Origin: Bolinopsis microptera
Lineage: Eukaryota; Ctenophora; Tentaculata; Lobata; Bolinopsidae
Direction: 5' to 3'
Assembly (NCBI RefSeq): GCF_026151205.1
Contig: NC_087081.1
Span: forward strand, 14,437,340 to 14,501,339
Length of the DNA: 64,000 nt
Positions within the stretch are counted from its first letter, which is position 1. Each line of letters starts with the position of its first letter. The position numbers and the translations under genes are program-made. This document shows positions 2,221-61,480 of the stretch, in pieces. The notes under the pieces were generated by a model, which searched no databases, was not told the DNA's origin, and saw only the letters and a program-made list of their open reading frames with translations.

Positions 2221-3865
2221 ACCGCTGATCACAAAAAATTAGTTATGGAAACTTGCCGTTAAATTACATAAAAGTTTGACAGCAATTCTTCCAACAACGC
2301 TACAGTATCAGGAGCAGAAGCAGCGAGCAGTTCTTTGGACAAAGCTATTTAAAGGTTCGGTTTTCCTCTATACTACATATGCTGCGTTTATAGCCGGGGC
2401 CCGGAGGGATACACAATTTTGGACTCGAGGCTTCCTCTGGTAATGCGATCTCGGAAGGCAGGCCTCCCCTTTGCAACACGAGCTCGGAAGCGGAAGCTCT
2501 CGATAGTCGATACGGGAGGTACGTATCGAGAATGACTCAGACCCAAAATTTTCTAAGTCAAAGTTTTTCAAAGTTTTTCTGAAACCACTTTTCTCCACGT
2601 TTCAATTTCATGCTACCCGGCCCTGTTCATTATTAGCCAACATTTTGTTTTGGTTTTTCAAACTCCGCACCTAGTGAAACGAAGCACAATAGTTCCCGAT
2701 TAAGGGCACAATTGTACCTTTATAACATGCATGCGCACTTCACTCGATTTCTTTGCCAGTCTGGTAATCTAACTATTCAATGATGAACCTCTCATTATTA
2801 GGGCAGTGTTTTATATCAACAGTATAGTTTTAATAATGCCCCTTGACAATACACAAGTTAAAAGATATACAAATAAACAAGTTGTGATGCCGTCACAAGT
2901 TTACTGCATTTTGTTAACAATGTTATTTTGACTAATTAGATCGTGGTAGCGCCTGGGTGGCTAAATGTAATTTGCACCGTAATTATAAAGTTTCTGCAGA
3001 GGAAGATTGGAAATCTTTGTCAGTTCTTCAGATCGTTGATCTCGAGTAGAATAAATTCAATTATAATATAATGTCACCGCAATTTATCAAGGACCGGAAT
3101 TTTTCAAATAACTCCGCAACCCAAAAGTTCTTAACTTTCTTTTGATGACGAAATTGTTGCGCGTATATAAACCCAAGTACATATTTCGAGGAGAGCTTAC
3201 ATATTATGAACAGTCACTAACTGGTAAACAGCAGTGACTGATCTTTAAGCAGCATTATTTTTGTCACAACATTTCTACACGTATAAGGTAGTTTTTTAAA
3301 TTTCTTATCGGGAGAAATGTTGTGTCTTAAATGCTGCTTTACTCATTTTCAGACGCATTTATTCGGAATACAATAGTTTGCAACCACGCTTATGAATTTT
3401 ACGTTCATATTTAATTATTTTGCCTTGTAAGATTTCATATTTAAATTAATATTTATTTTCCTGTAATTCATTCTATTGTTAACAAACTAGGAGCCAACTG
3501 GGAGCCGATCGGACATTTGGTTCGTTCACTGATCCGGTCTGCTTTCATTTTCAATATCTTGCTCTGTCGAACTTGTTTATTGAACAATCAGGAGTCATTT
3601 ATAAGATTGTTAAAAAATAAGCTGTCACAATCATATTGACAAGAATGTGAAATTTCATCTATCAACCGTAACTCTAACTGTAAGTGCCACACTGTGGTCC
3701 ACACTGACACACTAGAAGTATCCCAGTTTGTTTTAGTTATCATAGGATTTGATGACTATTATAGAGTTCAACTAATCTTGCTATATATAAAGCGAGACGA
3801 TATATATCCGTACCATTTTACTGACACCACGGCATCAACTTTAACACGATTTTCCGCAAAAACCG
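2221..3865. other. No gene recognised
   Basis: AT-rich DNA. A GC-richer stretch at about 2385-2620, with repeated CTCGGAAG-type words, looks like degraded repeat DNA. Short ORFs there and at 3694-3891 match nothing I recognise and lack exon signals. Confidence 0.5.
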
Positions 3866-12027: not shown

Positions 12028-14107
12028 GATACAAGGATAGGATACAAGGATACAAGGATACAAAGTGATAATTATTTTATTGAATTCACAATAGTTATAA
12101 TTCTGAAATAATTTAAGGTTACACAATTCTAGTTATTTACAAATGTGTAGGGATAAAATAGAAATGTTTTATAATACTATTTTTGAGGTCCTATAGCATT
12201 AATATGCATTGGCCAGTATTTGAGTGGAAATCTGGGCTCTTATAGTAGGCTGTAAAATGTTCGTTCACAGAGAGAATTGAATGGATTGCTCTTGCTGTGG
12301 CAGTAAATTTTGTAGGGTCTAGTGTTTTATCGGATAGCAAGCCGGCTAGGTCAGTAATATTTTTGGGATGGAAGTTAAATTTTTTTCTAACTAAGGAGTA
12401 GAATAAACAGTCAGTTAGAACATGAATTTCGTCCTCAATAGGCTTAAGCCCCATTGCTGAAAAAGCAGAAAGTGCACCATCGATGTTCTCTTGGTACTAG
12501 GGGGGTTTCGTAACGGCCCCTCTCAATGTAAAGATTGTGGCAGCTAATACGAAACCTTGTTAAGCTTTTCCGAGCACCAGGGATCTTAACCACTCCTAAG
12601 TATGTTTCTGGTTCAAAATCATGTTTAATTTGATTGTAGAATTCTAATTTAGATGAGGATGCCTTGGCAGATTTCCAGGTATCCACAAATTCTTCCCTCA
12701 TGTTGTGACTGATTTGGGTAGAGAGCTTGGATTTTGAAGAGGATGAGTGGGGGAAGTTATATTTGGTGAGAAGATTGGAGATGTTGGTGTACCAAAGTAC
12801 CAAGGAAGGCCCAGCATAATCTGCTCGTGAAATGCAGCGGAGAGAAGTTCATTTTCAGTGCTTTCAAGGCGACTATAGAAATCTATTGCAAGTTTGCAGG
12901 CTTCAAAGAAGAGGGGGTGGCGCCCACTTTCGCCCCAGCAGCCTATATTTGATGCTTTTGAATGGACAGACAAGGACCACTTGATAAACTTAAGGTGGAA
13001 TCTTTCATAGTGGTCTTGTGAGATGTACTTGAGAGTATGCTGGGGGTTGGCTTTGCTATCTGTTTTGGAGAGGTATCTCATGGTTTTTGAGTGAGGACAT
13101 AAGATTTGGCAGCCATAGAGCAGTATTGGTTTTATCAGAGAGTCAAATAGAATGTTTAGGGAACGGCGAGAGAGGGCATCTTTGACGATATTGCCTTTGA
13201 GGCCATAGAGAGCACGGAGAGCCTTGGCCCTCAGTTCAGTATTTGCTGCTGTAAAAGATCCATTTCTGTGGAATATAATGCCAAGATAGCAGTATTTTTC
13301 GGTATGTTGGATGGGCTGGCCTCCCAAAATGAATGTTTCATAGGATTGTTTTATTTTAGGAGGGCAGAATATGAGAATATTGGTTTTTTTAATGTTTACT
13401 TCAAGGCCCATAGAGTTACAGAAGTCGAATAGGATGTTTATATTGTCTTGCAAGGCCTTGGGACTTAGGGCAAGTAAGACAAGATCGTCAGCCCAGAGCA
13501 GATGTGATATTAGGACGTCAGCTAGAATAGGATAATCACCAACAGATTTCAGGAGAGATGACAAGTCGTTGATATAGATTTTAAAAAAGGTCCGGTGATA
13601 GGGGTGTCCCTGCTCTGTTCCTTTTCCAATGTCAATATTAGGGGACAAGAGTTTGGAGATTTTTATATGAGCTATTGAGTTTCTATACATATCACTTAGG
13701 CAATTGAAGAAGTTTCCAGTTATTCCAAGGCATGTGATTTTGTGCAGAAGGAGGTCCCTACATACAGTGTCAAAGGCCTTTCTTAGATCAACAAAGCATG
13801 CATAGAGGCGAGCTTTCTTAACCTTGGTATATTTGTCAATGACTGTCTTAAGGGTAAAAACGTGGTCATTTGTTTGAGCACCCTTCGAGAACCCTAGTTG
13901 TTCTTTTGGGTCAGGGCAGTAGAGCTTTTTGAAGTGCAGGAGACGCTCAAGTAAGATGCTAGAAAACAGTTTACCCATACAGCTACCAACAGCTATTGCT
14001 CTGTAGTTGTCCGGGCTGAAAGGGTTGCCAGACTTGTAACAAATGACTATAAACATCCACGGTAAAATTTTTGGTAAGTTGTTTATCGTCTGCCCTGCCT
14101 GGCACAA
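12028..14107 (-). mobile_element. 5'-truncated non-LTR retrotransposon with TTGTATCC 3' tail
   Basis: Reading on the minus strand, a reverse-transcriptase remnant (14107 to 12191) is followed by a short 3'UTR. It ends in repeated TTGTATCC units at 12028-12064, the microsatellite-like tail expected for a target-primed insertion. Endonuclease and the N-terminal RT region are absent, so the copy is 5'-truncated near 14.1 kb. The clade is not determined. Confidence 0.8.
12191..14107 (-). pseudogene. Reverse transcriptase, C-terminal two-thirds, frameshifted
   Basis: The first open segment (14107-12698) contains SGNPFSPDNYRAIAVG, FVDLRKAFDTV (RT block A), GTEQGHP (block B, normally xPQG), and LLWADDLVLLA, the YADD-type catalytic block. 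A degenerate thumb and connection region follows. Near 12795 the frame shifts to the segment 12803-12444. Near 12450 it shifts again to 12454-12191, where CTFC...DEIHVLTDC forms a split CCHC zinc knuckle typical of non-LTR C termini. Two frameshifts and the missing 5' part make it non-functional. Annotating it as a host gene would be wrong. Confidence 0.85.
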
Positions 14108-15020: not shown

Positions 15021-16181
15021 TTAAATAAGAGTCTCCAACACGGGAATGATCGAATTTAGTGTTGTCTCCACCTCAATTTCAGTCCCGATCAGGGGGTTAA
15101 ACTCGACAATATCACAAGATACCAAGTTTCCAGTCTTCCTGACCTCTCTGAAGATGGTCACCACATCCAACACTGACAAACCATGAGGGACTCTAGTCCC
15201 AGTACTCGGAGTCAGGGTGGGGTCCAAAGCGTCGATATCAAACGAGATGTGGACTGGGTTATCTTCCAGACTCAGGCGCTCGATCAGATCCTCAACCACC
15301 GAGTATATACCCTTCTGGTCTATCTCTGTCTTGGTGTAGTTCCTGACAGAGAACTCCTCTAGCAGTGCATCCTCTCCCGAGTCGGTCTCCCGGACTCCAA
15401 CATAGGCCATGTTAGCCAGGTCAAACTTCCCTTCCTTGCTCCCTGAAGCGTTAGAAAGAAAGTAGACCGGCATGCCGTGGAAGTTACCAGAAGGAGAGGT
15501 CTCTACAGAGTTAATATCAGCGTGAGCGTCAATCCAGATGACCCGGAGGTTGGGGTACTTGTGGAGCATGTTGGGGATGGTCATCATGGGGATAGCGTGA
15601 TCCCCACCCAGGTTCACCACCATGTCGTCACCAACCTCTACCTCCTTACCCACCTCACTCATCGTCTCCAGAAAGTTCTCCTGACTGATAACATCATTAT
15701 TGTTCAGACTGCGATCTGTTATAAAGTTGCTGGTTAGTTGTCCCCGAGACAGCTCTTGGATCTTGCTGAGGAGGATGGAGGAGCCGTATCGTACGCCCTG
15801 TTTCTTCTGGCCCCTCCAGAGGGGCAGTAGGTTTATTGTTAATGGTCTGTGTGTCGTATCACCATCTTTCAGCTTTGCGCTGCTTTCTGAATAAACAGTG
15901 GCTAAGTTTACTTTGAACCGATAAAAAATCGAATTCTAAATCCCTTCTTGGTGCATAGATAAAATAAAATAACGTGATGAAATTATTGCAAATATAAAGA
16001 ACAAATCTTGGTCTCAGTTTAAACGTTTGGTGTAAAACTCGTAATATTGGTGGGGCTAACCTGTAGATAGATGTCTTGGGCTTGGTGGTAGAAGAGATGG
16101 AGCTGACGCTTGTAGACTGCTTATTCCTCTGACTAAACTGACAAGAGACCCAACACCTTGGATTGTTGCCAACTTTTTCAT
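15021..16181 (-). CDS. ARG: Arginase, two exons, mitochondrial-type leader
   Basis: Joining 16181-16061 and 15886-15021 gives a 328-residue ureohydrolase predicted to hydrolyse L-arginine to ornithine and urea. Exon 1 (phase 1, donor CAG|GTTAGC) encodes a basic, Ser/Leu-rich, acid-free N terminus (MKKLATIQGVGSLVSLVRG...) that looks like a mitochondrial transit peptide. The 174 bp intron ends TTTATTCAG, and its phase matches exactly. Exon 2 holds the family core: LWRGQKKQGVRYG, then GGDHAI (H137), WIDAHADIN (D160, H162, D164), SGNFHG, SFDIDALDP (D257, D259), STGTRVPHG and DIVEFNP. All six Mn-ligand positions are present, and the 23-residue H-to-D spacing equals human arginase 1. The loop before D257 is shorter than in vertebrate enzymes. 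An open-frame-only call would start at M116 and lose the N-terminal third. No disruption is seen, so it is probably functional. Mitochondrial targeting is inferred. Confidence 0.93.
15887..16060 (-). other. Arginase intron (174 bp)
   Basis: On the minus strand the intron begins GTTAGC and ends TTTATTCAG. Exon 1 ends after one base of a codon and exon 2 supplies the other two. The ORF continues without a stop across the junction. Confidence 0.85.
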
Positions 16182-50330: not shown

Positions 50331-50889
50331 ACCTCATTTTCCAATAACCAAGTGTGTGTATCAGGCAACCATTCAAAACAGGATATGTAAGGGCTACAAT
50401 CGATAGAAGAACCATCACATAATAAGTTAAAAGGGTTTGAGGACACCTCACAGTAGAAAAGAGGTATCGTATTTTTTTATTAAATACTTTTCAAATTTTA
50501 CCGAGTACAGCAATAGATGAATATAAAATAGAATCGTTCAAAATATCGCCCCCATCTGTAAAATATGATGGGCACCCAAACACGGTAAACACATAGTGAA
50601 CTATGTCCGCAGTAACTTGGACCCATTACATCGAATTAATCTAAATCCAAAAATTTATGAAAAACTATTTAATAACAAACAAATCCATGGTGAATAACTG
50701 TGGATATAGAGTCAAAATTTGTATTTCAATACGTCAAATTCCAGATACATTAGATACAGGTCTGAAATGGTCATTAATGTGTGAGAAGGTGTGCGGGTGA
50801 AGTGTGATATGATGTTGAAAGTATAGGAAGGTAGATAAAAAAATTAATAAAACAAAAATAATAATAATATGGGGAGCAAAGAGACTAGG

Positions 50890-53800
50890 CTAGACTGTTG
50901 TTTCACTATCCAATAAACATTTCCATAGATGCTTAGTGACCTCAGCTTTGAAAAGACTAGTAGACACAATCTGTCTTACCTGTAAAGGGAGTCCATTCCA
51001 CAGTATATGGGTTCTGTAGAAAAATGATTTTGCCAGTGGGCTATTTGAGGTACATGTGGTGTGTGAATTCTGACTTAACTTAGGTAAAATTGATGACACA
51101 ATAGACAGACTGTCGAGGTGGCAACGTCTTAGTCGAGAAGTGCCCTGATATAAAGAGAGATAGTGAGGCAGTGATACAGGAATTAAATTGTTAAGAACTT
51201 TGTGGAAAAAAATAAGATCATTCAAGTCAAACTTTTGAGACAAAGGGAGAATGTCGACAAGCTTGCACTTTTTGACATATTGCTCAGGTGGATAACTGCG
51301 GCCCTCTTCAGACAGAATCCATTTAATAGCTCTCTTTTGGAGACTTTCTAATTTATCACTAAGTGATTTATTACAAGGGCGCCAGATTATGGAACAATTT
51401 TCGAATTGGCTACGAACCAGGGAGAGGTAAAGCGCCCGGCGACGTTTCTGATCAATGACAATATGGCCATCTCTTCTGACCATACCAAGTTGTTGGCAGG
51501 CCTTAGTATAAATTCTGTCGCACTGACTATTCCAACTTAGCTTAGGAGTAACATCGACTCCAAGATCTTTTTCTAACTCTACATACACAAGAGGAGAGCC
51601 ATCAAGATTGTATGCGAATGGAGGAGATAAAGATGGTTTTCCTGAAACAATAAGCACTTTACATTTTGCTGGATGGAATCGCATTTTGTTTCTTAGTGCC
51701 CAGTCAGAGAGATAGTCTATATCCATTTGTAAATTAGTATTATCAGAAGATGAATGTATTTTACGCCAGATTTTTGTATCATCGGCATACAAAACAATAT
51801 CAGTATTATCCGAAAGGCCAAGAGGAATATCATTGATAAACAATACAAAAAGTAAGGGACCAAGAATAGAGCCCTGGGGGACACCAGAATTAACTGAGAG
51901 GGTAGATGACATCTCATTACCAATAACCACTCTTTGGTAACGGCCTTGAAGGTAATTGGTAAGAAATTTGAGAAGTGTACCATCAATGTTATATAAGGTC
52001 TTTAGCTTATGAAGAAGGATATCATGATTTACAGAATCAAATGCCTTAGCAAAATCAAAATACACAACATGATTGATAATGTTTTCGTTAAGAGACAATG
52101 CCAGGCTATCACAAAAGTCAACCATATTGGTTGTGCATGACTTGTGCTCTAGAAAACCATGCTGCCTGGGATCAAGAAGGGTACTTGTCAAAGAAAGCAG
52201 TTTACGTTTAACAATGCGCTCAAAAACTTTCATGACTAAACAAGTAAGGGATATTGGTCTATAGTTTTCAACCTCACTTTTCTTACCTTTCTTAAATATT
52301 GGGACAACATTTGCAAGTTTCCATTCTTGTGGAATGTAGCCGCTGTTGTAAGATCCACGAAAAATGCATGTTAGAGGGTAAGCTAAACATACGGAACAAT
52401 TTTTGAGAATTTTACCGTGTATGCCATCTGGTCCCTGGGCTTTATTTGAATTAATATTTGAAAGAAGCTTACGAACATCCCGATGATCGAAGTCAATATC
52501 AAAATCAACATCATTGACATAGGAGATATCAGTGTCATAAAGTGAAGGATCCGAAAACTGGTTATAAAAGAAAGAATTGAAAAGTTCAGCTTGAGCTTTG
52601 GGTTTGAACCGAAGCTGTCCAGAATAACTAACACAATTAGGAATACGGCAGGAGTTAGATTTATACTTAACATGTGACCAAAACTTCTTAGTTATTAGCG
52701 CTGGATCATCACTATTGAAAAGATTGTCTCTTATTTTGGCTGATGAAAGCCTCTTAAAATCTTTACGGCTAGTAACAAACTTTAACTCATCAGAAATAGA
52801 ACCAGAAATTTTAAATTTAGCTCTGAGTCTATCCTTTTTACGGCATGAAGAAAAAAGTTCACTATCGAACCACGGGGGTTGAAACTCTGATTTAATAGTT
52901 ACTTTAGGAATATGTATATCAACTAAATTCATAATGCAGTCTTTAACTAACTTCCAAGACGAATCAGGATCTAGGCATTCTAGGACTTGCCAATTAATCG
53001 AGCATAATTCACGATTAATCATGTCCCAGTTTGCTTTCTTATAATTATAGATTTTACGTTTAGGAGTTTTCTTGCGGGAAAAGGAGCTTTTAATTGAAAA
53101 AGTGACAGGAAAATGATCAGATTTGCACACGGAATGAGGATCACAGACATTCAAGTTATCGATTGTGTTATCATAATTACTGAGAAGAATGTCTAATGTA
53201 TTACCACTTTTATGGGTGGGTGATGTGATCAACTGGGAGAGAGAAAGATCACTGAAAGAATCTATGAAGGATTGCTCAATAGGTACGGTACTGGATGAAG
53301 ATAGCCAGTCTGTATGGGGGAGATTAAAATCACCAATAACATAGATTTTAGGGGGATTCTTTTTGGAAACTAGCTTGCGAATATAACTAACTATGACATC
53401 ATGATTAGGTAACCCAAGAGTTCCTACTCTATAACAAGTACAGATTACAATACTCTCTTTGTTAGGAAAAGCAATTTTAACGGCAAGCATTTCTGCACCT
53501 AGGCTAACTGGTAGTCGGGTTGTAGTGGCATCGAGATCAGACCGAACAGCCAAAAGAACACCACCTCCATTTTCCCTAAACTTTTTAGGGTTATTAGGAT
53601 CTTGAGGATGAGTCTTTCTCGTGCGGTCATTGCGGAAGATTTCATATTGAGAAGAAGGAAAGATTTCGTTGCTAGAAATAGATTTTTTGAGCCAAGTCTC
53701 ATTTAGGGCAATTATGTCAGGCTGCTCTATGTTAGCAAAGGATTGAAGTTCGGAAATCTTATTACCATCAAGAAGGGGATGGGAGGAGCTTAGGTTACTG

Positions 53801-54405
53801 AAAGGAATAAGACCTTGGACATTTTGGTAGAGTACAGATAGGGAGTTGGGACCTGGATTAAGCATAGAAGGATTAACAAGAGTTATCAAAAGAAAGTTAA
53901 GAGAGAAAACCCAAAGAATGAATAAAGATACTAGACGCCTGAGGCGGCTGGAATACTTGACTCTATTCATCTTACCAGGGAGAAGAACATTTCTTATAAA
54001 CCATGAGGAGATAATTACAAAGAAAAGTTTGATGTGGGAGCAAGCAAGAAATGGTATAAGATAACGTGGGCTGTCAAGGAGTAGAGAGGAATGAATATTA
54101 GAATCTAGGGGGAATACGGTGTTCATGGACCTAGTCGTGGAGAGAAGAATTGGGAGAAGGTAAGTCATGATGAGAGAATAGAAGAGAAACATATGATTAT
54201 GATAATTGTAGTTGATGTGTGGGGTGCATGGAGAATTAAATGTGTAAATTTTGTTAGGTATAAACGTGTTGATATGTATATGTGCATTTCTTGACTGTGT
54301 ACGAGGCCTTTTGCATGCAAAAAGACCTATTCTAAGTCTAAACGATTCATTGTCTAACATATGGAAAAATGGGCAGTGACCGAATGTACCTGAAATAGGA
54401 GGCAT
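50890..54405 (-). CDS. Retrotransposon ORF2: APE endonuclease-reverse transcriptase
   Basis: 1171 residues. The N-terminal 186 residues contain hydrophobic stretches (about 117-142 and 158-177) and end at NPGP (183-186), reminiscent of a 2A-type site but without the DxE part. Residues 189-440 form the APE endonuclease: YQNVQGL, NETWL (235-239), GGGVLL, CTCYR, GDFNLPHTDW (358-367), NTLDILLS and SDHFPV (429-434). A linker precedes the RT: NKAQGPDGIHG (654), ANVVPIFKKG, YFDFAKAFDSV (782-792, catalytic D784), SGVPQGSILGP (840-850) and YADD (873-876). The C-terminal thumb/extension (RPCNKSLSDKLESLQKR...) is intact. The protein should nick target DNA and prime cDNA synthesis from the element RNA. 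The ATG chosen gives the longest frame, and the true start may be further downstream. Confidence 0.93.
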   Translation of the reverse strand: MPPISGTFGHCPFFHMLDNESFRLRIGLFACKRPRTQSRNAHIHINTFIPNKIYTFNSPCTPHINYNYHNHMFLFYSLIMTYLLPILLSTTRSMNTVFPLDSNIHSSLLLDSPRYLIPFLACSHIKLFFVIISSWFIRNVLLPGKMNRVKYSSRLRRLVSLFILWVFSLNFLLITLVNPSMLNPGPNSLSVLYQNVQGLIPFSNLSSSHPLLDGNKISELQSFANIEQPDIIALNETWLKKSISSNEIFPSSQYEIFRNDRTRKTHPQDPNNPKKFRENGGGVLLAVRSDLDATTTRLPVSLGAEMLAVKIAFPNKESIVICTCYRVGTLGLPNHDVIVSYIRKLVSKKNPPKIYVIGDFNLPHTDWLSSSSTVPIEQSFIDSFSDLSLSQLITSPTHKSGNTLDILLSNYDNTIDNLNVCDPHSVCKSDHFPVTFSIKSSFSRKKTPKRKIYNYKKANWDMINRELCSINWQVLECLDPDSSWKLVKDCIMNLVDIHIPKVTIKSEFQPPWFDSELFSSCRKKDRLRAKFKISGSISDELKFVTSRKDFKRLSSAKIRDNLFNSDDPALITKKFWSHVKYKSNSCRIPNCVSYSGQLRFKPKAQAELFNSFFYNQFSDPSLYDTDISYVNDVDFDIDFDHRDVRKLLSNINSNKAQGPDGIHGKILKNCSVCLAYPLTCIFRGSYNSGYIPQEWKLANVVPIFKKGKKSEVENYRPISLTCLVMKVFERIVKRKLLSLTSTLLDPRQHGFLEHKSCTTNMVDFCDSLALSLNENIINHVVYFDFAKAFDSVNHDILLHKLKTLYNIDGTLLKFLTNYLQGRYQRVVIGNEMSSTLSVNSGVPQGSILGPLLFVLFINDIPLGLSDNTDIVLYADDTKIWRKIHSSSDNTNLQMDIDYLSDWALRNKMRFHPAKCKVLIVSGKPSLSPPFAYNLDGSPLVYVELEKDLGVDVTPKLSWNSQCDRIYTKACQQLGMVRRDGHIVIDQKRRRALYLSLVRSQFENCSIIWRPCNKSLSDKLESLQKRAIKWILSEEGRSYPPEQYVKKCKLVDILPLSQKFDLNDLIFFHKVLNNLIPVSLPHYLSLYQGTSRLRRCHLDSLSIVSSILPKLSQNSHTTCTSNSPLAKSFFYRTHILWNGLPLQVRQIVSTSLFKAEVTKHLWKCLLDSETTV

Positions 54406-54502
54406 AAAATTGAGAAAAAGATTAAATCAGAGATTTGTTTGAGTTTTAATTTTAGGCGCAACGTCTTAATCAAAATATTAAATGAAAGAAAAGATCAAAG
54501 AT

Positions 54503-55885
54503 TTAAATTCCCAGAAGATTATTTACAACCCTGACAAAACTGTGTTCGTTTACAACAAACTTAAGCCAAGTGGACAGTAAACCTACTCCTCTCATGTTGA
54601 GATGAAGCCAATCATGGTATAGAAGTTCATTACATGATCTAAAGTCTCGAGTTAAAAAGTTTGAGAAACAGTCTAGGAACACGCAATTATTCTTTAGGCA
54701 TAAGTCTTTAAGTAGATTGTTAAAATCTAGAACATTCTTTGCTATGTAGGAATATAAACACTTAATAGGAAGACAACATTGGACAATTATAATTGCAGCG
54801 GGAAATAACTGCTTAGTGGTGTCAATTAATTCAGTAAGATACTTCCTAAGGAACTGAACCCCATACTTAGAATGTTTAATGTCATTAGTACCAACACTCA
54901 ATATAATTTTTTCAATATCGTCAGCTTCTGCAGCTGCATGAGTTTTATGAAAATGATGAATGTTTTCAGTGATGTCTCTAATTTTTGCACCACTTTGAGA
55001 CACATTGATTACTTTCCTTCCCCGGAATCCCAACTTATTTGTCCGTACGAATTTTGTCATTGACGTACCAAACAGGACAGTGGTTTTCCTGCTCTTCGGT
55101 TTTCTTGGAGCATTTCGGTAGTAAAGGGTTGGTGTTGAGGTGGTGGTGGGCGGCATAGGAATTGTAGTGCGGGCAGTCTGCTCCTTGACTACATTTGTAT
55201 CTGTCTTCGGTATCTGGCAGCGAAAAGATAAGCTATACCGAGTCCCCTTAACTGAGCTCTCTGCACGAACCTTGTGAAGACAATATTCCTGACACCCCGG
55301 TTTCATAATATACAAACTACAGTCCTTTGGGGTGATATAGCATTTACTGTTACATCGCTTATCCCCATTTTCTGGAATTATGTCGAGGGTCCTCTCAGCT
55401 CCAAATGAAACTACATAAATACCTTGCGACTGGTCAAGAGACACCTCGTCGTCGTTGTGGTACCTAGTTGCACAAGAACCAGACTTGTACATGCTTGCTA
55501 GGCATGAGTTTAGCTTGCAGCCAAACTTGGAGTTGATATCATGCATAAGCTCTGATATCCCAGGATAATTTAAAATATCGATTGGCTCCTTAGTCGTGGT
55601 GTGTCCATTTGAGGAAGACCATACATATTCTTCTCCAGTGGAAGTGAGCCACTTTGTGGCAGTTTTCACAGCAGTTTGCTTGGCCATAAGTGTTTCAAGT
55701 TCAGACATCAAGGTGCCATGTTGAACACTCTTGTTTTGAACAAAATCTGAATGCAACTCCAAGAAGTCCTCGCATTTAACAGAATCCCTCTTAAGTTTCA
55801 TGACATTCTCAACACTGGCCTTAAGAGCTTTCAGCTCTTTTAATGAAAACGAGTTTAAAACATTGGTAACAGAATTCAGATCCAT
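54503..55885 (-). CDS. Retrotransposon ORF1: AlkB-like dioxygenase fused to SGNH hydrolase
   Basis: 460 residues. An N-terminal helical region (1-75) is followed by an AlkB-like 2-oxoglutarate/Fe(II) dioxygenase domain (about 85-226). It has LASMYKSGSCATRYHNDDE with Fe ligands H143 and D145, VVSFGAERTLDI, LHKV with H204, and RYSLSFR with the 2-oxoglutarate-binding R216 and second R222. All positions of the HxD...H...RxxxxxR signature are present. After a Pro/Thr linker (230-265) comes an SGNH esterase domain (268-447): LFGTSMT (nucleophile S275, block I GTS rather than GDS), VGTNDI (N334) and DWLHLN (D425, H428). Esterase domains are known in CR1/L2 ORF1 proteins. An AlkB domain would be expected to demethylate nucleic acid, possibly the element's own RNA or cDNA (inference). 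The 5'UTR and spacing tie it to ORF2. Confidence 0.9.
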   Translation of the reverse strand: MDLNSVTNVLNSFSLKELKALKASVENVMKLKRDSVKCEDFLELHSDFVQNKSVQHGTLMSELETLMAKQTAVKTATKWLTSTGEEYVWSSSNGHTTTKEPIDILNYPGISELMHDINSKFGCKLNSCLASMYKSGSCATRYHNDDEVSLDQSQGIYVVSFGAERTLDIIPENGDKRCNSKCYITPKDCSLYIMKPGCQEYCLHKVRAESSVKGTRYSLSFRCQIPKTDTNVVKEQTARTTIPMPPTTTSTPTLYYRNAPRKPKSRKTTVLFGTSMTKFVRTNKLGFRGRKVINVSQSGAKIRDITENIHHFHKTHAAAEADDIEKIILSVGTNDIKHSKYGVQFLRKYLTELIDTTKQLFPAAIIIVQCCLPIKCLYSYIAKNVLDFNNLLKDLCLKNNCVFLDCFSNFLTRDFRSCNELLYHDWLHLNMRGVGLLSTWLKFVVNEHSFVRVVNNLLGI

Positions 55886-55906
55886 AGTGAAGGAAAGAGG
55901 GAGGAG

Positions 55907-55936
55907 AAGATGGCGGTGAGGGAGGAGAAAATGGCG
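55907..55936 (-). promoter_or_regulatory. Two YY1-type CGCCATNTT motifs in the retrotransposon 5'UTR
   Basis: On the sense (minus) strand CCGCCATCTT (55907-55916) and CGCCATTTT (55928-55936) sit within a tandemly repeated block of about 20 bp, just upstream of the ORF1 ATG. A single YY1 site near +13 positions transcription start in human L1, and a comparable role here is inferred. Confidence 0.5.
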
Positions 55937-56274
55937 AAGTCAATACTGTAGCCCAGGAAGTAGATGCGTTGCTTAGGATACAAACGGTCACGTCATAGTC
56001 TCTTCTATCGCTTTGACATTGGGACCTAAAATTATTTGTTATATAGTAGTGTTGAAAGTATTAAAACTTATGAGTGTGACAATTTAAACATTATAACAAT
56101 ATGTATTTCTGAGCAGTGCATATGGGAGTATGGGTCACGTGGCTAATGTTCAGAACTTCTGAACATGCCATGTTAATAGATACCAAAATCAAGCCACTAT
56201 CGTCGAAAAAGTAGTATTGTTTTTTACCAACATCCTCAAACTCAAATTATAAACGTGTCCATTTACTGTACGTG

Positions 56275-57282: not shown

Positions 57283-59474
57283 ATGGGAACAGTCTTTGTC
57301 CGGACGGGCTTGCTATGGTTTCTTCTGTTTGGGATAGTCCACTGTGCAGGTTAGTGCATATTACTTTATTATGAAAAGGCGCTTAATATATCTCCACAGA
57401 AAGCAAATTTGTAAGCACTTATGCGCAAGAGTTAAATTGTGAGTTCTTCCAATTCCATTCAGACGTTTATCCCGCATTTATGTAATGTACGTTTGAGCGG
57501 TCTGTCTTCCAGCTTAAACATATTTACATTTTACTGTGATACCCCATAATTGATAATTTCTTTGATCCCTGTCCCTCTTGGGACAGACGCTTGATGAGGA
57601 CCGAGCTGATTCATTTTTAACATCAAACAAACTTCTGATCACTGTTGATATAGAAAAAACAATTCTTAGATTTTTTAAAAATAAATTACTGCTAAAAGAT
57701 GATACAAATTTGCTCTGTGCTTCCATATTTTTATCATGGTCATCATTATGATTTCTATTTATTGATTCTATTAGATTTATTCATTTTCATGCTATCAAAG
57801 AAATGACAATTTAACTGTTAAAGGGACTAATTATTGCCGCTCGTTGACACTGATATGTTGAATTGCTGTGCTGCAGGGACAAAAGGATTTCGCGATTATT
57901 TTGGCCAAAATTCGCGATACCGCGAATTATGGGAAAAATCGCAATTCCGTACATGCCGCGATTTCCTTTTGTCCCTGCTGAGACAAGTTCCTCTAACAAT
58001 ATTATGCTATTCTCAGTGGTTACACCTGGGAACAGAGAAGTTCTCAGTGGAGCGGAGGCAGTGATATCTTGTAAAGTGACGGAAATAACAGCAGCATTGC
58101 AGGCTGTAAGATGGGTAAAGTCTGATGGTACGGACGTAACGACTGTTGAGACCGGTTACACCTCTAACAAAGGATCATTTGCCGAAAATTCTCAAACTAC
58201 CACGCTGACTGTTGCTAGTGCACAGAACACCGCGGATTCAAAGTACACCTGTTTGATAACACCTGCAGACGCGACAGAAATTTCAACAATTGTATCTTTG
58301 GATACTTTCAGTGAGTACTTGGTAGTTAAAAACAATAAAAGTGTTTCGTTAAAAATAAGCTATTCAGATCATTTAGATAATTATTGAATAATACATTGTT
58401 AAACTGACTAGGTTATCATGAGGTTTATTCTTGCTGTAGATGTACCTACTACAGCCCAGCAGTTGTTGAACACCTCTTCGACCAGTGATGAATTTGGAGA
58501 AGGTGGAAATGTTGAAAGATTAGGAGACTTTGCATCCTTTGGTGTTTTTACCTAAGATCTAGGCTACGTATTTACACCTGATCGGCTCATGTACTTCACA
58601 AATGTCTCCTTTAATTCCATATAAGCCTTCTTCCTTCTGTATGTGCATTGTACGTTTCCGACTCCATATTTAGGAGCGTCTGGCTTCAATATCTGGCTTC
58701 AGTCGGTTTAGAAGGTCATTGGTTATAACTATTACTAATAAGCTAATAGGTATACATATCGGGTCCTTAAACCTCCATATAGTTATACCAGGAATCTCGA
58801 TCCAATAGCAGGTGCTCCATATCAAAAAATTTAAAAACTATTGAAAAAATTTTTGATTTTTAAACATCTAACCAAATATAATATATAAGAGGTCGAAAGT
58901 TTCAAAATGTTTCAGATAAATAATATACTCAATATAAAATATTTTATTTCTAGTGACCAAGTAACATGCCTAACCCTTAGGTTTGGATCTCAGGGCCCTA
59001 CATCATTGAGATTCGACAATTCTACGGCACTATTCGGTGCTACCACCAAGATTCACGTTTAGATTGCTTTCATGCTATTATATTTACTTTCCGTATTTCG
59101 CTGTAACCAACAATGGATTAATATTTATAAATTCTAAAATAACTAATTTTAATTCTCAGCTATAACGCCACACAATAAAGACATCCAAATTACTGCTGTA
59201 GCACAGACAATATCATGTGAAATAGCCGGACTGGGAAGTGCAGCCGATATTACGTGGAAAGACTCTAAAGGAAATGCTATCGGCACTGGTGACACTACTA
59301 ATTATATTGTTGATGAAGGAAAAGGATCATTCAGTCCACAGACGACTAAACTTACTTTAAAGCCGACTATAGTGTCGTCTATAAGTGAAGTGGAAAGGTA
59401 CACATGCTCGGTGATACCAACATATTACCTTGGATCCCCATCATTCGAAAAGAGCGTTGTAATTGTTCCCACCG
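57283..59474 (+). CDS. Immunoglobulin-superfamily secreted/receptor protein, 5' exons (partial)
   Basis: Three exons join in phase 1. 57283-57349 encodes MGTVFVRTGLLWFLLFGIVH and CA, a classic signal peptide, with donor GCAG|GTTAGT. 58017-58310 (after TATTCTCAG, donor TTTCA|GTGAGT) encodes Ig domain 1 with C41, W55 and the DSKYTC motif ending at C101. 59160-59474 (after TTAATTCTCAG, donor ACCG|GTTAGT) encodes Ig domain 2 with C140, W153 and RYTC ending at C203. Each Ig exon is a whole domain with symmetric 1-1 phase, the signature of exon-shuffled Ig proteins. Both domains share a G-SF-..QTT.LT strand pattern, so they are related repeats. Later exons are not visible by 64 kb, so the gene continues outside or is truncated. 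An optional exon at 58440-58555 is listed separately. Role: extracellular recognition or adhesion, ligand unknown. Confidence 0.75.
57876..57980. mobile_element. 105 bp MITE with GCAGGGACAAAAGGA ends
   Basis: GCAGGGACAAAAGGATTTCG at the left pairs with CGCGATTTCCTTTTGTCCCT at the right. The interior is also partly palindromic (CGCGATACCGCGAATT). It lies in the intron 40 bp before Ig exon 1, close to its branch-point region. A solo end-like sequence occurs at 40537. Confidence 0.7.
58440..58555 (+). CDS. Optional exon of the Ig gene: alternative terminus or stalk
   Basis: After acceptor TTCTTGCTGTAG an exon in the same phase (2+0) reads VPTTAQQLLNTSSTSDEFGE, then GGNVERLGDFASFGVFT and TAA at 58553-58555. 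Spliced to Ig exon 1 it would yield a short secreted one-Ig form. A weak donor at 58502 (GAAG|GTGGAA) would instead make a symmetric 63 nt Ser/Thr-rich stalk exon leading to Ig domain 2. Low-complexity stalk composition fits either. Usage cannot be decided from DNA. Confidence 0.4.
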
Positions 59475-60855: not shown

Positions 60856-61480
60856 TTAAACGGATTAAACGGATTAAACGTTGTTTAATCTGAGAGAAAC
60901 GGGGACGACATAAATCGTTCAATTGTCAAAAGATGTTACAAGGACGTTTAGAACTGTCCAGAGGTTCTGAATTAAATAAGCTTTAAACACGGATGGCCTT
61001 GAGATTTCCCTTAATTCATAAGGGAGTTTATTCCAAAGAATGTGTGCTCTGTAAAAGTAAGATTTAGATATGCCTGAACATCTGGTCTGGCTTTAGGTAA
61101 GGTTTTGTGGAAATTGAGGTGAAATGTCACTAATCATACTGAGATCGTCTAGATGTGATCGCCTTAACCTACTTCCCATGAAACGTCGTAAGTAAGGTGG
61201 AAATGTCACAACTGACATGTCATAAAAAATATTATGAAAATATAATATATCCTTGTAATCAAACCTTACCGAGAGTGGAAGGATATTTAGTTCCTTACAC
61301 GCTATGAAATACCTTTTTTTGTCCCTAAGGCTCAAGTAAATATCATTAAGGATCCACTTGATACCTCTTTTTTGTATCGATTCAAGTTTCTCCACCGAGG
61401 TTTCTGAATGAGGCCGCCAGATAATTGTTGTAGGTTTACAACCTACCAGGACGCGCGCCGAGTTGGACTCGTCGACGGTC

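Follow-up and report, generated by a model that had tools for sequence, protein, structure and literature searches.

An AlkB-type dioxygenase joined to an SGNH esterase in ORF1 of LINE retrotransposons of the ctenophore Bolinopsis microptera

Does the open frame at positions 54503..55885 join an AlkB-type Fe(II)/2-oxoglutarate (2OG) dioxygenase to an SGNH esterase as ORF1 of a mobile element, and is such a fusion a single accident or a part that these elements keep? The question was raised by a sequence-only reading of the window, the 64,000-nucleotide stretch of B. microptera DNA analysed here, which described an intact fusion directly upstream of an APE-RT ORF2 and proposed that the element might protect its own RNA or cDNA from methylation. 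The coordinates and the residue positions given in that reading were correct, and the frame lies on the minus strand.

The frame belongs to a whole LINE copy of about 5.6 kb (50471..56068; this and all element features below are on the minus strand), the edges of which were set by blastn against other copies. The 5′ edge fell at 56065-56071 in 17 of 25 copies (L010-L034), a spread within seven bases, and the 3′ edge at 50471-50472 in all three copies compared (L040-L042), within two bases. A 5′ untranslated leader (55886..56068) runs from the common 5′ edge to the ATG of ORF1 (54503..55885), an open frame of 460 aa found at this length in 25 copies. Separated from ORF1 by 97 bases, ORF2 (50890..54405, 1171 aa) was delimited from its open frame, Pfam and genome copies; it contains an endonuclease (EEP) domain at 53104..53784 (Pfam Exo_endo_phos, residues 208-410, and Exo_endo_phos_2, residues 320-434) and a reverse transcriptase (RT) domain at 51652..52284 (RVT_1, 1.2e-28, residues 708-918). 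The 3′ untranslated region (50471..50889) extends from the ORF2 stop to the common 3′ edge. With EEP and RT in an ORF2 downstream of ORF1 and with repeated copies, the element shows the traits of an APE-type non-LTR retrotransposon.

ORF1 was divided into four regions. Residues 1-85 (55631..55885), delimited from the sequence and showing a within-family pN/pS of 0.154, may form a self-association segment. They are followed by the AlkB-type domain (residues 86-226, 55208..55630), by a linker (residues 227-268, 55082..55207; pN/pS 1.45 for residues 227-262) that ends in a basic stretch (RNAPRKPKSRKTT), possibly an RNA-binding arm, and by the SGNH/GDSL esterase domain (residues 269-436, 54578..55081). 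Pfam recognised the esterase (Lipase_GDSL_2, 2.3e-12). The only dioxygenase match was PF03171 (E 0.0021, 18.8 bits against a 23-bit cut-off), and PF13532, the Pfam AlkB model, gave no match in this ORF1 at E<=1; the PF13532 cut-off was treated as a detection aid and not as a trait that defines AlkB. Against the PDB, window ORF1 alone matched human ALKBH3 (8jnr) with E 7e-8 over residues 107-226, ALKBH2 at 0.003 and weaker, two esterase/lysophospholipase sequences at about 7e-6, and 4c1b, the ORF1 esterase of the LINE ZfL2-1, with E 6.6e-5 over residues 270-438. At the level of sequence, the AlkB-SGNH make-up is confirmed by the PDB comparison, and the description of an intact fusion ahead of an EEP- and RT-bearing ORF2 was upheld. 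The two Pfam hits forecast for ORF1 were borne out for SGNH; for AlkB the forecast failed in the window protein and succeeded in three relatives chosen by similarity (see below). The assignment of the AlkB fold rests on sequence similarity, and AlphaFold2 run on the window AlkB segment alone, as a single sequence, gave a mean pLDDT of 30.

A search with ORF1 gave at least 94 genome matches (92 of 917 candidates scored). With the window copy counted in, 26 ORF1 copies were stop-free over at least residues 8-459 and were 94-100% identical. ORF2 gave at least 40 matches (39 of 6924 candidates scored), 38 of them spanning at least 1123 residues and 7 of these containing a stop. An ORF2 match was listed within 300 bp of 22 of the 26 ORF1 copies, and both frames were full and stop-free in 20, so the predicted companion copies with both frames exist. 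The family looks young and recently mobile. The AlkB residues H143, D145, H204, R216 and R222, together with the SGNH residues S275, N334 and D425/H428, were retained in every one of the 25 copies of 460 aa; the 26th copy (L029) was left out of the residue and pN/pS counts, being without the MDLN start. Neither a lack of further copies nor relaxed ligand residues, the two outcomes named beforehand as pointing to a one-off fusion or a non-functional domain, was found.

The architecture was not confined to this family. Because the PF13532 search drew on the best 150 of 587 candidates scored, its matches favour intact ones; at least 151 were obtained, and all listed but one were stop-free. Around these matches 28 loci were read (L001-L008, L048-L067). 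In 18 loci one frame ran from AlkB into an SGNH-like part; 6 were of a Helitron type (L067 being broken), and in 4 the AlkB frame had no SGNH. These 4 were taken as host-like, one of them being an ALKBH8 with its methyltransferase. At L003, an AlkB frame similar to the host-like ones (1063-1950) is followed, some 700 bases further on, by a second, SGNH-like frame (2662-3438); these may be host genes or an old element. Similarity to window ORF1 brought in four further ORF1s (L043-L046). All 12 of the other element proteins scanned exceeded the PF13532 cut-off. For nine of them, picked up via PF13532, this follows by construction; the three found only through similarity to window ORF1 (L043, L044 and L046) scored 51.6-60 bits against a cut-off of 31.2. 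Among 11 LINE-type proteins scanned, the Pfam SGNH/GDSL cut-off was passed by L043, L044 and, barely, L046; the match was sub-threshold in L007, L048, L058, L059, L061, L063 and L065 and unlisted in L051. Where the Pfam match was sub-threshold or absent, and in L052, L053, L056, L062 and L064, SGNH was read by eye from its Ser, Asn and Asp-x-x-His blocks. By our count, which includes families from the SGNH control described next, about 20 LINE-type families carry AlkB before SGNH. In some of them other parts were noted: a PHD-like zinc finger (sub-threshold in Pfam) lies at the ORF1 N-terminus in L048 and L058 and at the start of ORF2 in L055, and in the open frames of L051-L053 (777-851 aa) AlkB lies nearer the N-terminus, the central part looks helical and the end is SGNH-like.

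The SGNH control comprised 12 loci from an SGNH search (150 of 424 candidates scored), picked by frame length and blind to AlkB, although not at random. AlkB was present in 10 of the 12 (L069, L070, L072-L079; broken frames in L078 and L079), and 6 of these 10 belonged to families already counted. It was not found in the 395 residues read of the 426-aa frame of L071, nor in the 995 of 1814 aa read of L080, which has a sub-threshold SGNH match. Since SGNH ORF1s without AlkB exist in this genome, AlkB is a module of some families. A scan of viral contigs with P0001 gave 3 stretches that matched a pattern, none confirmed as a relative.

An EEP-bearing ORF2 was located beside ORF1 in 12 families (window, L043, L044/L045, L046, L007, L057, L048/L055, L064, L056, L062, L058 and L051), a count in which no ORF2 was read for L065 or the control families. 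ORF2 was checked by Pfam in the window family and L055, and by reading and EEP alignment in the rest; it is broken in L043 and lies in two frames in L051. For L059, L061 and L063 the start of ORF2 was seen. The EEP parts, aligned in 11 rows, formed three groups with 14-24% identity between groups, and by reading the L051 EEP would make a fourth. Pairwise AlkB and EEP identities were correlated (Spearman 0.47, a value reached in 53 of 5000 permutations), which is what one would see were the module mostly inherited together with its ORF2. The AlkB-SGNH pairing appears to be an old LINE module in this genome, and a Helitron has a version of it; the single-element scope of the sequence-only reading was too narrow, its placing of AlkB-SGNH in a LINE ORF1 being correct.

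That Helitron is a single element made up of L005 (223-3402) and the adjacent L068. Its Rep and helicase are preceded by SGNH followed by AlkB, the reverse of the AlkB-SGNH order of the LINEs. The frame continuing L005 matched Helitron_like_N (4e-23) and PIF1 (6e-21), and this was seen for this one element; L049, L050, L054 and L066 were put in the Helitron type by 90-93% AlkB identity in the compared pairs and not by Rep parts. The AlkB tree placed the Helitron rows beside the LINE row L046 (support 96/88) and separated the LINE and Helitron rows from those of host-like and L051 type (93/91, a little below the tool's star). The L051 type clustered with the host-like rows (86/75), which suggests a second, separate AlkB capture. 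The broken L067 was left out of the alignments, L004, L006 and L008 were dropped as near-copies of L007, and L073, L074 and L076-L079 were omitted from the tree because their families were already in it; L075 was kept despite an aberrant upstream part and has a long branch.

The active site was then compared across 25 element rows, some of which are near relatives. The iron ligands (H/D/H), both 2OG arginines and the Glu after HxD were kept in 25 of 25 rows, as were one further Gln and one further Arg. The 2OG-contacting Tyr was kept in 24 rows, with Met in L072. The 2OG-contacting Asn, which we take to correspond to AlkB N120, was present in 11 rows and replaced in 14, by Ser in the window family. 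Invariance of the five HxD...H...RxxxxxR positions is partly built in, because the frames were partly recognised by that pattern; the loci themselves were chosen by similarity scores, and a frame with the pattern was present in 24 of 24 loci tried. Most other invariant columns of the 20-row AlkB alignment entered no prior requirement in the choice of frames. The 20-row profile matched ALKBH3 (1.7e-30) and ALKBH2 (2.5e-25) best in the PDB, followed by ALKBH8 and bacterial AlkB near 1e-11 (next best 7e-12); a few other 2OG-Fe proteins and N6-methyladenine demethylases lay between 1e-5 and 1e-3 (8haz, one of the latter, weak at 5e-5), ALKBH1 near 1e-3, and ALKBH5 at only 0.19. In profile similarity, and with no claim of orthology, the element AlkBs are nearer to ALKBH2/3 than to other AlkB groups. 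ALKBH2 and ALKBH3 take methyl groups off N1 of adenine and N3 of cytosine, groups that block base pairing and polymerases, and acidic residues after HxD read the base in these enzymes. The m1A/m3C direction suggested beforehand fits this profile. The substrate is not readable from sequence, since the profile also weakly matches N6-methyladenine demethylases.

Purifying selection on AlkB is evident for other families; in the window family, the youngest burst, the AlkB differences are too few to reveal it. In 12 of 16 pairs of related families or subfamilies, AlkB dN/dS was 0.04-0.29; the remaining 4 gave no value, dS being saturated. Values were 0.17 for L044/L045, 0.23 for L048/L055, 0.22 for L048/L064 (dS 2.3), 0.13 for L007/L057 (dS 1.7) and 0.04-0.05 among L051-L053. 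Helitron-type rows gave 0.16-0.29 in AlkB and about 0.4-0.9 in flanking stretches. In five pairs, nonsynonymous change in AlkB was lower than synonymous change by Fisher's exact test (p 0.0009 to 1e-28), which is conservative here because single genomic copies were compared and changes after insertion are included. Within the window family, pN/pS was 0.15 in the N-terminal part, 0.84 in AlkB, 1.45 in the linker and 0.21 in SGNH, the AlkB value resting on very few differences and being uninformative. The expected dN/dS below 1 was obtained between related families. A one-off fusion is rejected by the many copies and families and by the selection between families, and a pseudogene or relaxed AlkB domain is disfavoured at the between-family level by these values. 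Synonymous divergence in the window family was also uneven: pS was 0.0125 in AlkB but reached 0.049 for the N-terminal part and 0.053 for SGNH, so that AlkB codons 86-226 (55208-55630) stand at about one quarter of their neighbours. A windowed look did not explain this; subfamily recombination or an RNA constraint is possible.

What would such a protein do for its element? Starting from the domains, active-site residues, copies and between-family selection observed above, we infer dealkylation, RNA coating and template upkeep as follows. The ORF1 protein (ORF1p) would coat the element RNA, to which the AlkB domain and the basic linker between AlkB and the esterase could bind. The AlkB domain would hold single-stranded nucleic acid and oxidatively clear methyl or other small alkyl groups from adenine N1 and cytosine N3, be they the result of damage or marks set by the host; the element's reverse transcriptase could then still read the RNA template or the growing cDNA. 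The esterase may act in localisation of the RNP or in membrane contact, as proposed for ZfL2-1. We lean, by a modest degree, towards this reading of the window element as an autonomous, recently mobile LINE whose AlkB-SGNH ORF1p would dealkylate its own single-stranded RNA or cDNA. Counted against the dealkylase reading were the variable Asn, the Met of L072, the window-family pN/pS of 0.84, the Pfam miss, the pLDDT of 30, the partly built-in motif and the m6A-type matches.

Helitron transposition passes through single-stranded DNA by the rolling-circle route, and LINE RNPs, rolling-circle Helitrons and AlkB-bearing RNA viruses all have exposed single strands; the AlkB-bearing plant RNA viruses do not reverse-transcribe and are not known to carry an esterase. 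A wider proposal is put forward tentatively and with some doubt: AlkB plus SGNH could be a shared transposon module, by which elements with a single-stranded RNA or DNA stage (LINEs, a Helitron and, similarly, AlkB-bearing RNA viruses) carry their own dealkylase against polymerase-blocking N1-A/N3-C lesions or host-made marks. In this lineage, on the same view, it would have become the most frequent form of SGNH ORF1 among those sampled, with perhaps two acquisitions and an exchange between LINEs and Helitrons.

Other explanations were weighed against self-directed dealkylation. The AlkB fold might serve mainly as the RNA-binding part of ORF1p, in place of RRMs, with catalysis dispensable. AlkB does precede the esterase, where an RNA-binding part would be expected, the 2OG Asn varies among the element rows, and RepBase esterase ORF1ps are described as having no structural RNA-binding domain (PMC3905857). 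Pure binding, however, would not require the three iron ligands and the two 2OG arginines, none of which is lost in any of the 25 element rows, and we consider this explanation unlikely. We give similarly low credence to an action of the enzyme on the host's own tRNA, mRNA or chromatin DNA marks, 3mC among them, by which the element would be more readily translated or less silenced. 3mC in chromatin DNA is made by DNA methyltransferases, and the ALKBH2/3-like profile would suit such targets. For an orchid Ty3/Gypsy element with an ALKBH5-like m6A demethylase, the authors propose a role in host surveillance against transposable elements (PMC9289625), but similarity to ALKBH5 is weak here (E 0.19).

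Chance capture, with the domain hitch-hiking without benefit, could draw on the window-family AlkB pN/pS of 0.84 and on two sampled SGNH families (L071 and L080) without AlkB in the part read. It is disfavoured as very improbable by the between-family dN/dS of 0.04-0.29, the Fisher p values, the spread over about 20 families and the chance that the L051 type stands for another, independent AlkB lineage. An artefact of assembly or contamination, likewise disfavoured, has a next to negligible chance: the copies lie at 94-100% identity on many large contigs, and similarity mostly ends at common element edges.

How does this architecture compare with known systems? In ZfL2-1 (PDB 4c1a/4c1b), an esterase-type (type IV) CR1/L2 ORF1, SGNH likewise lies upstream of an EEP-RT ORF2; no AlkB is named for ORF1s of this type in the two papers cited next, whereas AlkB precedes the esterase in window ORF1. 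A survey of 448 Jockey-superfamily ORF1s names five types of which AlkB is not one, and confines the esterase type to two vertebrate groups; AlkB, 2OG and oxygenase had 0 text hits in its main text (PMC4120745). The ZfL2-1 paper had 0 text hits for AlkB, and it proposes RNA binding of esterase-type ORF1ps via basic peptides (PMC3905857). In the orchid Phalaenopsis, the retrotransposon-encoded AlkB is an m6A demethylase in vitro, ALKBH5-like, and encoded by a separate ORF of an LTR element (PMC9289625); the window AlkB is instead ALKBH2/3-like, fused to an esterase in the ORF1 of a LINE, and of a kind found in many families. Plant positive-strand RNA viruses are likewise RNA-stage parasites with an AlkB, which is credited with RNA repair (PMC2714080). 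ALKBH3 and ALKBH2, the best matches of the element AlkB part, are host repair enzymes, and the tree divides the LINE and Helitron AlkBs from this genome's host-like ones (93/91). Bdelloid LTR elements with a GDSL ORF3 place esterase modules across several retroelement types (PMC5408684); AlkB had 0 text hits in that paper and in two papers on accessory domains (PMC6338049, PMC5563155). Among the open-access papers listed, mostly by title and start of abstract, none was seen to describe AlkB within a Helitron or the ORF1 of a LINE; this is not proof of absence, because preprints and Repbase entries lay outside that scope. The AlkB-SGNH ORF1 architecture is real and well supported, with no earlier description found. 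LINE ORF1 proteins are poorly understood, and an ALKBH2/3-like enzyme would offer a concrete function for them, the clearing of lesions or marks at which reverse transcription halts. Transposon-encoded nucleic-acid demethylases would then reach beyond an orchid LTR lineage, into many families of LINEs and one Helitron, and it could be tested directly whether the chemical modification of transposon RNA or single-stranded DNA is a battleground.

Elsewhere in the 64-kb window, an Rfam scan at gathering cut-offs gave 0 matches. By reading, a second RT-like open frame of 469 aa was seen at 12698-14107 (minus strand), an arginase-like open frame of 213 aa at 15021-15662 (minus strand), an immunoglobulin-like frame at 57863-58387 (plus strand), and, at 61093-61395 (minus strand), a fragment resembling the 3′ end of the ORF2 type of the LINE.
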